Of a stretch of DNA of 31,253 nucleotides, positions 27,050 through 30,091 are shown one piece after another. Position 1 is the stretch's first letter. Every line of letters starts with the position of its first letter. Made by a program: the position numbers and the translations under genes. The notes under the pieces are model-generated. The model was not told the origin of the DNA. It did no database searches and saw only the letters and a list, made by a program, of their open reading frames with translations. The stretch covers positions 1-31,253 of IMG/VR virus record IMGVR_UViG_3300025671_005364. One strand, given 5' to 3'. The stretch is from a virus.

Positions 27050-27592
27050 TCAAATATCGGACTTTTTTTGCATTGCGTTACCCAGCCTTCGGTACTTGGC
27101 TTTCATCTCTTTGAGTTCATCGATGGAATACTTCTTTATTTTCCCTCTCCTGGACTTTAACTGCTCGAACTTCTTATCCCCTATGCGAAGTGGTAAACGC
27201 TCTGTGTACTCGATTAAATTGCCGTGTAGGTGCTGATTGCAAGCCACGCATTGTCCGTGTACGTTATCCGCATCGAATCTTAACTCTGGAGTGCTACCTA
27301 CTGAATAATAATGCCCTGCATCGTATTTGCCCACTAATGGCTTGCCACAACTGATGCAAGGCTTATTCTTATCGCGTAGCCTGATGTAACGATTGAACTG
27401 CGTTTGTACCTCCTTCAGCCAATCGGACTGCGTTTTAAGTGCATCTCTGCGTTCCTTCTTCTCCTTATTCCACCGCTTCTTCTCTTGTTGCTTAGTGTAG
27501 GCCATCGCGCAGATCGGACTGCATACCATTTGCGTTGTGGTGTACTTCGGAGTGAAGGTGTTCTTGCAGATCTTACACTTCTTTGGCTTCAT
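27050..27592 (-). CDS. ninG: NinG-like recombination protein
   Basis: A protein of 180 residues. An N-terminal zinc finger (CKIC at 6-9, C24, C28), a basic coiled region, and a second finger (CISC at 79-82, C115, C118, H121) with DAGHYYSVGSTPELRFDADNVHGQC are characteristic of lambda NinG/Rap, a Holliday-junction endonuclease that boosts recombination. It overlaps the cytosine methyltransferase by 20 bases. It complements the ERF and exonuclease genes located elsewhere. Confidence 0.85.
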   Translation of the reverse strand: MKPKKCKICKNTFTPKYTTTQMVCSPICAMAYTKQQEKKRWNKEKKERRDALKTQSDWLKEVQTQFNRYIRLRDKNKPCISCGKPLVGKYDAGHYYSVGSTPELRFDADNVHGQCVACNQHLHGNLIEYTERLPLRIGDKKFEQLKSRRGKIKKYSIDELKEMKAKYRRLGNAMQKKSDI

Positions 27593-28418
27593 ATTGGTTT
27601 ATTGCTTTGAATATCTGTAACGCTACTTGTGGTACTATTGCGTTTCCTCCTGCTTGAAGTCTTTGTCTTTTGAACTCCACCCTGGAGGAAAGCCCATCAA
27701 CCAATCTATCCAATCTGGGTTCGGTGTCCCACCAAGTTGATCTGGCAAGGTTGGTGTTAAATCCCCTTTCGATCGCTCTCGCCATTTTTTTGAGCTCATC
27801 CCTTTCCAATCCCTGCTCGTTGGTGTGCGATACAATAATTGTTCTGGTCCTTCTGTGAGGCGCTCCAATTCTGGAAGCTGGTACATTGAACCACAATGAA
27901 TCATACCCGATTTTGGTAAGTCCTGCAAGGACTGTTGATAATCCTCGAACATTGAGATTTGTACTGTTTTCCACGACAACCCATCTTGGTCTAAGAAGGC
28001 ATAACACCCTTTCGAACTCGTACCACAATCCTGATTCAGTTCCATCTTGTATTCCTTTTGGTTTTTCTATTGCGTTCTTTGCATTCGTTATATCTACACA
28101 CGGGAATCCGCCCGTAATAATATCTACCTCGCCAATTTCATCATCCCATTGGCTGCAATCTATGCATTCACAATCGGCAAAGTCCTGGTTATGTCGATCG
28201 CACCACAATACCTCTCTATCGCCGTAGATGTCATCGTATTCATCGCTAAAACGATAAATATCTTTTACATCATTTATAGAAATCGCTTTTGGAAATCTTT
28301 TTTTCAAAACTTCCCTTTGGTATTCTTCCTTTTCACAATGGAATATGTTTTCCCACCCCATCCATTCTGCTGCAAGGTCGAACCCTCCGATTCCTGAAAA
28401 TAAGCTCCCGTGCCTCAT
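27573..28418 (-). CDS. DNA C5-cytosine methyltransferase
   Basis: A protein of 281 residues. Motif I FSGIGGFDLAAEWMGW (7-22), motif IV GGFPC with catalytic Cys107, motif VI VVVENS (148-152; the usual ENV is ENS), motif VIII GAPHRRTR and motif X GGNAIVPQVA are present. An inserted CDRHNQDFADCECIDC (73-88) could bind zinc. The target-recognition region is short. It may protect phage DNA from restriction. From 27635 to 28045 a +1-frame ORF is also open and conserved-looking. Starts ATGA-coupled with the 62-aa gene. Confidence 0.9.
   Translation of the reverse strand: MRHGSLFSGIGGFDLAAEWMGWENIFHCEKEEYQREVLKKRFPKAISINDVKDIYRFSDEYDDIYGDREVLWCDRHNQDFADCECIDCSQWDDEIGEVDIITGGFPCVDITNAKNAIEKPKGIQDGTESGLWYEFERVLCLLRPRWVVVENSTNLNVRGLSTVLAGLTKIGYDSLWFNVPASRIGAPHRRTRTIIVSHTNEQGLERDELKKMARAIERGFNTNLARSTWWDTEPRLDRLVDGLSSRVEFKRQRLQAGGNAIVPQVALQIFKAINQYEAKEV
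27635..28045 (-). CDS. Overlapping +1-frame protein nested in the cytosine methyltransferase gene
   Basis: An ATG at 28045 opens a 136-residue frame in the +1 phase, wholly inside the methyltransferase gene. It does not look random: SWKTVQ (24-29), LPKSGMIHCGSMYQLPELE (43-61), RTPTSRDWKG (73-82) and NPDWIDWLMGFPPGW (109-123) match a pattern I know from phage proteins usually encoded beside cytosine methyltransferases. The other frame over the same bases gives canonical methyltransferase motifs. Either both frames are translated, or the family in databases partly consists of shadow frames. Function unknown. Confidence 0.5.
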   Translation of the reverse strand: MELNQDCGTSSKGCYAFLDQDGLSWKTVQISMFEDYQQSLQDLPKSGMIHCGSMYQLPELERLTEGPEQLLYRTPTSRDWKGMSSKKWRERSKGDLTPTLPDQLGGTPNPDWIDWLMGFPPGWSSKDKDFKQEETQ

Positions 28419-29302: not shown

Positions 29303-30070
29303 CTACATCAGTCTTTCATTAGCGATATCGCAGTATTCTTTACTTATCTCACTTCCTATAAAATTTCTATTGTTAGCCTTAGCCATTTTCGCAGTAGTTC
29401 CACTTCCCATAAAGCAATCATAAACTAAATCGCCTTCATTGCTCCAACTTATGATATGGTCATTTGCTAATTGTTCGGGAAATATCGCACTATGTCCATA
29501 AGCTATTTTGTCAGTAGTAGATTTCATATAACCTACTTTGTAAGTCCATATATTAGTCCTTCTTCCGTACTCATTTATTACAACATCTTTTCTTTTGCTT
29601 GTAGTTCCATCTGCGTTCCTTACTGTTTTACTACTTGTTTTTTTACCCGCTTGTTTATTTTTTCTGTCGCAAATTAGGTTATACGCTTTAGGTTTACCAT
29701 TGCTAAATACAAACATATACTCCATACAGCTCCAGTATCTATTTGGAGAGGGTTTTTGAAATGAATCTTTATAGTATATCATAGTATCGTGAAGATTAAA
29801 CCCACACTCTTTAAAATATAGGGCTTGTCTAAAACTTGTGCCAGTCTCGCTGCCTTTTATAGTAGCATCACCCACTACCCATACCACAACTCCACCTTCT
29901 TTAGTTACTCGGTAGAGTTCTTTGGCTATACTTTCAAAATCAAAACTATACCCATTGTACGTTCTCAAATTATCATAAGGTGGTGATGTTACAACTAAAT
30001 CAACAAAGTTATCAGGCATTTTAGCCATTGTGTCAAGGCAACTTTCGTTATATATTTTATTTAGTTCCAT
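29303..30070 (-). CDS. DNA N4-cytosine/N6-adenine methyltransferase
   Basis: The start is the ATG at 30070 (MELNKIYNESCLDTM), giving 255 residues; the TTG three bases upstream is not needed. TSPPY (28-32) is the catalytic motif IV and FMGSGTT (about 220-226) the AdoMet-binding motif I, in the order motif IV then I (beta-type). A Lys-rich insert (RKNKQAGKKTSSKTVRN) lies between. A sampled line (29521-29580) has 17 of 60 G+C, against 30 of 60 in ssb, so the gene is probably acquired. Target sequence unknown. Confidence 0.9.
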   Translation of the reverse strand: MELNKIYNESCLDTMAKMPDNFVDLVVTSPPYDNLRTYNGYSFDFESIAKELYRVTKEGGVVVWVVGDATIKGSETGTSFRQALYFKECGFNLHDTMIYYKDSFQKPSPNRYWSCMEYMFVFSNGKPKAYNLICDRKNKQAGKKTSSKTVRNADGTTSKRKDVVINEYGRRTNIWTYKVGYMKSTTDKIAYGHSAIFPEQLANDHIISWSNEGDLVYDCFMGSGTTAKMAKANNRNFIGSEISKEYCDIANERLM

Positions 30071-30091
30071 CAATCTTTTGTGTTATAAATT

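Follow-up and report, generated by a model that had tools for sequence, protein, structure and literature searches.

Lee, Kam and Shaw reportedly found in 1995 that, in the C5-cytosine methyltransferase M.EcoHK31I (YGGCCR), the gene of the large subunit also encodes the small one in a different reading frame. The large subunit of this enzyme contains motifs I-VIII and X and the small subunit motif IX; its predicted target-recognition domain has been placed in the large subunit (PMC3404938). In M.AquI (CYCGRG), it is the smaller subunit that holds motif IX together with the distal part of the recognition region (PMC3404938). Totally overlapping C5-methyltransferase genes have been described in Streptococcus thermophilus phages of the 5093 group and, earlier, in a Streptococcus pneumoniae phage and in Tn5252 (PMC5601072). 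A literature search, conducted with most subscription journals outside its scope, returned only this streptococcal case of overprinted or nested phage methyltransferases and, within the same scope, no published description of the spread of a nested layout.

The window analysed here, a stretch of 31,253 nucleotides of viral DNA (IMG/VR record IMGVR_UViG_3300025671_005364), very probably encodes a phage C5-cytosine methyltransferase of the M.EcoHK31I type, built from a large subunit (alpha) and a small subunit (beta). All coordinates below refer to features on the minus strand. Alpha (27573..28418) is a 281-amino-acid protein with motifs I-VIII and X, and its translation, read from 28418 to 27573, confirmed the main-frame motifs VVVENS, GAPHRRTR and GGNAIVPQVA named in the original prediction. 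It matched PF00145 (6.5e-28), with the best stretch stopping at position 169 of the 324 profile positions, as well as phrog_363 (7.3e-59). Motif I reads LFSGIGG, and motifs IV (GGFPC, 28098..28112), VI (WVVVENS, 27963..27983), VIII (APHRRTR, 27843..27863) and X (AGGNAIVPQ, 27627..27653) were all identified. In family alignments, key residues of these motifs fell in invariant or nearly invariant columns, the invariant ones being F7, G9, G12, E29, G104, P106, C107, E150, N151, R190, R192, G258, N259 and P263. C107 in motif IV is the putative catalytic residue, which we take to be the cysteine used by C5-methyltransferases in general. Alpha carries the complete set of catalytic motifs of the PF00145 family (I, the PC of IV, the ENV of VI, the RxR of VIII and the GN of X). 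Motif IX was absent from alpha: about 65 residues separate R192 (motif VIII) from G258 (motif X), and they contain no motif IX. Judged from this spacing, a target-recognition domain would not fit into alpha; what PF00145-type enzymes carry on the same chain, a recognition region and motif IX, is here assigned to the +1 frame. A structure model of alpha (pLDDT 80, pTM 0.80; low confidence for linker residues 232-243) gave M.HhaI as its top fold match, with 210 columns aligned at 2.8 A. The length of this alignment, together with the missing motif, suggests that alpha corresponds to the large domain of such an enzyme without the small one.

The nested frame, beta (27635..28045), lies wholly within the alpha gene and comprises 136 codons from the ATG at 28045, at +1 relative to alpha. 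As originally predicted, it reads SWKTVQ, LPKSGM, RTPTSRDWKG and NPDWIDWLMGFPPGW, and the bases that code for RWVVVENST in the main frame do give GLSWKTVQ in this one. Beta matched phrog_1008 (1.7e-12) and, according to profile comparisons, contains a putative target-recognition region and motif IX. The consensus SWKT of the beta alignment (27965..27976) is encoded by the same bases as WVVVENS of alpha. The TPTSRDWKG block (27800..27826), in which P73, T74 and P75 are invariant or nearly so, belongs to the putative recognition region, and this PTPxxRDxKG block, with PTPxxxD as its shorter pattern, recurs in longer relatives as repeated LPTP blocks. Motif IX, NPDWIDWLMGFPPGW (27677..27721), has the family form NPxxVEWLMGFPxGW, with M117, G118, P120 and W123 invariant. 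The beta profile aligned to motif IX of 15 canonical C5-methyltransferases with E 1.2e-4 (single comparison) over 51 columns at 55% probability, and natural beta-plus-X proteins aligned to motif IX and then to motif X of these enzymes (4.7e-5). Neither the identity of motif IX nor the M.EcoHK31I precedent had been part of the original prediction. Its proposal that the nested protein might cooperate with the enzyme gained support from the predicted content of beta, which provides what alpha lacks, a recognition region and motif IX.

The beta ATG, with its A-rich leader AAAAGGAATACAAG (28043..28067), is the first ATG past the upstream in-frame stop codon. An in-frame ATG or GTG was present in the expected start region in 126 of 181 loci, with a cluster 23-25 codons ahead of motif VI. 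A Shine-Dalgarno argument based on AAGGA was given up: other genes of this phage also have A-rich leaders with little Shine-Dalgarno character, so that AAGGA alone is no evidence for the beta start. Enrichment in the start region across loci gave the argument no backing either, since it mixes open frame with start codon. Searches of Pfam and NCBIfam with beta gave no match, and comparison of the beta profile with PDB sequences found nothing. Modelled alone, beta gave a poor structure (pLDDT 64, pTM 0.26), and a PDB fold search with this model, which is too poor for such a search, found no fold. The poor model is compatible with, and no proof of, a subunit that folds only alongside its partner.

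The motif content and layout of both frames could be established by sequence comparison. Like M.EcoHK31I, with which it is compared by described layout, the window pair divides into one polypeptide with motifs I-VIII and X and one with motif IX. The nesting of that type, with the second protein in another frame and both frames under selection, was found as well, selection being a family-level result (see below). The two differ in that M.EcoHK31I is part of a restriction-modification system, whereas the window is from a phage and no restriction-enzyme gene was seen adjoining the locus. They also differ in the recognition domain, which was placed in the large subunit of M.EcoHK31I (PMC3404938) and which the available space and the selection pattern would place in beta in the window. 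M.AquI resembles the window pair in having two subunits, the smaller of which contributes motif IX and the distal recognition region, but its small subunit also holds motif X; in the window, motif X belongs to alpha, within which beta lies nested over its whole length. As the layout has been published for M.EcoHK31I and full overlap for the streptococcal phages and Tn5252, the window pair is of a known but under-recognised kind.

To obtain a null expectation for the +1 frame, synonymous codons were shuffled within each methyltransferase gene, which kept protein sequence and codon usage intact. In the window gene, tested as the identical contig L009, the +1 frame was open for 143 codons against a permutation mean of 53 (p = 0.003, the floor for 300 permutations), and the +2 frame was ordinary (p = 0.77). 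Among 71 distinct genes, the +1 frame was open for more than 140 and up to 336 codons in nearly all, mostly at the same floor of p = 0.003; two genes clearly departed from this (p = 0.23 and 0.50), both of them with a short alpha frame. The +2 frame was almost never unusual. Stop codons in the +1 frame of close relatives had been named as grounds for rejecting a nested gene; in relatives the frame stayed open. Scored with a beta profile trained on loci other than the gene under analysis (50 permutations per gene), the window +1 translation reached 131.5 bits, compared with 43.0 ± 9.2 and a maximum of 71.1 for its permutations. The beta score exceeded all 50 permutations in 79 of 79 and 68 of 68 genes. 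This result is independent of locus choice, because the 79-gene set was found via beta and the 68-gene set mostly via alpha.

Substitutions were analysed in 28 independent family pairs (51 pairs in another run); since the only close relatives of the window are identical contigs, this analysis speaks for the family and not for the window gene. The rate of alpha-synonymous, beta-changing substitution in the overlap at motifs VI-VIII was 0.60 (95% 0.50-0.73) of the rate outside the overlap, a 40% reduction of synonymous change where the frames overlap, and the anticipated depletion of synonymous sites was thus observed in relatives. Ahead of the overlap, divergence at the three codon positions was that of a normal gene (0.055/0.030/0.194). 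Between motifs VIII and IX it was 0.332/0.237/0.263, so that variation there peaks at alpha position 1, the third position of beta codons, and the ratio of position 1 to position 3 rose from 0.28 in non-overlapping sequence to 1.27 (1.10-1.45). In the same segment, dNN/dSN of alpha was about 0.87 (0.76-0.96) and dNN/dNS of beta was 0.65 (0.52-0.78). At motif X the profile was normal once more (0.089/0.061/0.214). The coding role is thus handed over from alpha to beta and back to alpha, with the wobble between motifs VIII and IX belonging to the beta frame; the corresponding alpha segment, the VIII-X linker (27684..27821), is near neutral in alpha, judged from substitution patterns in relatives, and its +1 frame codes for the beta recognition region. 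These results demonstrated that, at the family level, both frames are under selection.

An open, conserved-looking +1 frame could arise merely through conservation of the methyltransferase frame, which was the second option of the original prediction. The N-terminal half of beta gives this idea some substance: it overlies the conserved alpha motifs VI-VIII, permuted genes still scored about 35 bits there against 64 bits for the real ones, streptococcal and lactococcal phage methyltransferases matched it weakly (E about 1e-6), and its score, although above all permutations in 141 of 170 genes, lay within the permutation range in the remaining 29. The C-terminal half, under which alpha is barely conserved, scored 68.4 bits against 4.6 for permuted genes and exceeded every permutation in 170 of 170. 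The suspicion therefore holds for part of the similarity only, the N-half being partly shadow-like and the C-half having almost no shadow component, and main-frame conservation alone accounts for about 35 of the 64 bits of the N-half. Beta similarity did not drop to the level of synonymous permutations in any of the 147 whole-gene comparisons, substitutions between motifs VIII and IX track beta, and canonical methyltransferases lack the beta C-half. A pure shadow is accordingly of very low probability, since both kinds of test, permutation and substitution, already refute it at the family level; what lies in the nested frame is a real gene. Nearly all database hits do overlap a methyltransferase, as had been suspected, but shadowing does not explain these overlaps. 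The alternative of genuine overprinting is instead supported by conservation of the +1 frame beyond what the main frame demands, by the depleted synonymous sites and by substitutions that, from motif VIII to motif IX, follow the beta frame.

If the nested frame is expressed, it could still be reached by a programmed frameshift, in which the ribosome would move from alpha into the +1 frame past motif VIII and produce a fusion of alpha (I-VIII) with beta, with no separate beta start. Such a fusion would order the recognition region and motif IX behind motif VIII on one chain; split, overlapping methyltransferase genes are known in actinophages, and the same order occurs naturally on the single chains of Ramsey gp69 and xhp1. 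However, the fusion would stop short of motif X, which remains in frame 0, the N-half of beta, upstream of any shift, is conserved beyond permutation in most loci, and the majority of loci offer an in-frame start codon in the expected region, all of which makes a frameshift unlikely. A further reading, in which beta is real and overprinted but has a function apart from the methyltransferase, such as anti-restriction or DNA binding, seems very unlikely. Consistent with such a role, beta has no Pfam or NCBIfam match, and its N-half persists in the +1 frame of Ramsey and xhp1, whose main frame includes both the recognition region and motif IX; because it is kept there, this half may do something else. 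Against it, the C-half aligns to motif IX, split and single-chain relatives have it joined in frame to motif X, and the segment missing from alpha is exactly what beta has.

In the preferred two-subunit reading, alpha would supply the catalytic domain, with SAM binding (motifs I and X), the catalytic cysteine (motif IV) and motifs VI and VIII. Beta would be translated from the internal ATG on the same mRNA and would supply the small domain, that is, target recognition plus motif IX. Assembly of the two would yield the equivalent of one canonical C5-methyltransferase, and the heterodimer would most likely methylate phage DNA and thereby protect it against host restriction. Within the overlap, both frames are constrained from motif VI to VIII, beta from VIII to IX, where alpha serves as linker, and alpha again past motif IX, with motif X.

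Nearly all beta homologues found, from phages, about 15 bacterial phyla and one archaeon, were at +1 relative to a methyltransferase. A tblastn search with beta against annotated phages returned 48 records; in the first eight examined (phages of Mycobacterium, Sulfitobacter, Bacteroides, Streptomyces, Stenotrophomonas and Lacticaseibacillus, and from faeces), the match was always in the methyltransferase +1 frame. An IMG/VR search with the methyltransferase gave 79 loci, and every beta match among the loci gathered up to that search was at +1. All 80 viral loci found through beta alone had methyltransferase motifs I-VIII and/or X one frame back. Among 80 GTDB loci, 73 had both alpha parts in the +1 relationship and 4 lacked only the upstream part, with X at +1. 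What is present of alpha was therefore at +1 in 77 of 80, and the other three deviated solely in motif X, which was in the beta frame (L249), in the third frame (L216) or not found (L228). The GTDB phyla, about 15 according to record names, include Pseudomonadota, Actinomycetota, Bacillota, Bacteroidota, Cyanobacteria, Synergistota, Myxococcota and Spirochaetota, besides the one archaeon. Five beta matches (L239, L240, L243, L244, L245) were on a single metagenome-assembled Roseovarius chromosome, perhaps as repeated prophages or an assembly artefact. In L131 and L134, alpha has very long inserts between motifs and the +1 frame is still open for 420-505 codons.

The nested layout of the window was also found in Hades and in Paenibacillus phage Rani (gp50/gp51), whose nested ORF bears the annotations 'g50 Internal gene' and 'DNA methyltransferase'. 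The C-half of Rani beta scored 72 bits (permutation maximum, 14); unlike the window protein, it belongs to another beta subfamily and has a longer N-terminus. An AquI-like split with +1 overlap and a beta bearing motifs IX and X was observed in Sebastisaurus (gp34/35), Lilbooboo, Catdawg (gp6/5), Flux (gp80/79) and L249. In Sebastisaurus gp35, Catdawg gp5, Flux gp79 and L249, the beta-like sequence was seen to read through to motif X without a change of frame; these four have the M.AquI-type small subunit with X and IX that the window lacks. Ramsey gp69 (L263) and Actinomyces phage xhp1 (L267) are single chains that have motifs IX and X in frame with a beta-like recognition region, and they retain the beta N-half in +1 (46 and 45 bits, permutation maxima 36 and 34), possibly as a fossil of re-fusion or owing to a separate role of that half. 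The profile phrog_1008 ('DNA methyltransferase', 329 positions), which matches window beta, also matches Sebastisaurus gp35 over most of its length and seems to describe the AquI-like split form, because it continues through the region equivalent to motif X. Two PHROGs of unknown function, phrog_26627 and phrog_27243, are probably nested beta subunits or fragments, since they match the motif IX end of beta.

Many actinophage records, including L255, L257 and similar mycobacteriophage loci, carry two adjoining 'DNA methylase' genes. In Flux and Catdawg such paired genes are the two halves of one split methyltransferase with +1 overlap; the annotated start of the second Flux gene may be too late.

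The nested methyltransferase layout, of which a few examples have been known for decades, is selected for and very widespread. We give even chances to the view that, among overprinted pairs of prokaryotes, it ranks with the oldest and most widely distributed, having been derived from a single-chain C5-methyltransferase broken by two compensating frame changes. One change would have occurred ahead of the recognition region and one between motifs IX and X, placing the region and motif IX in +1. Separate reading would let the recognition subunit evolve where alpha is a near-neutral linker. The nested arrangement would then have spread among phages and across numerous bacterial phyla, AquI-like splits and single chains being related states. 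Among the 'DNA methyltransferases' of phages and prophages, many have probably been annotated as one protein, the overlapping recognition subunit usually being dropped by gene callers; most genome annotations miss the second protein. An overlapping recognition subunit would account for short methyltransferases without motif IX. If the recognition subunit is overlapping, a codon-optimised alpha expressed alone would fail, and specificity prediction and studies of host defence would be affected. With over 200 loci, the family is a natural set for the question of how two frames share DNA and where each wins.

Canonical methyltransferases with an in-frame motif IX, from Bacilli and other cellular genomes, served as controls and scored about 0 bits for the beta C-half; four control loci (L274, L275, L277, L278) proved to be of the nested type. 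The +1 frames of the canonical controls were mostly unremarkable, the exception being a class with RECWRLQGFP and a different nested ORF. In this second C5-methyltransferase class, mostly with complete motif IX (L258, L259, L265, L285, L288, L291), the +1 ORF had 141-181 codons (p = 0.005 each) and matched the beta N-half only, and weakly; in phage examples it ended in a CSLxDILE-type tail, e.g., CSLSDILEENVDEKYFLS. This overlap is probably the one published for streptococcal phages and Tn5252, which resemble the window in encoding two products on the same DNA in different frames. S. thermophilus phage CHPC1282 (L265), taken as an example on the assumption that it is identical in kind with the published pairs, differs from the window in that its main frame is a complete methyltransferase with its own motif IX (RECWRLQGFP), while the similarity of its +1 ORF to beta is confined to the N-half. 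Upstream of the C5-methyltransferase, the window carries a second putative DNA methyltransferase gene (29303-30073), listed with a TTG start, that has a TSPPYDNLRTYNG motif, by eye of the N4/N6 type.
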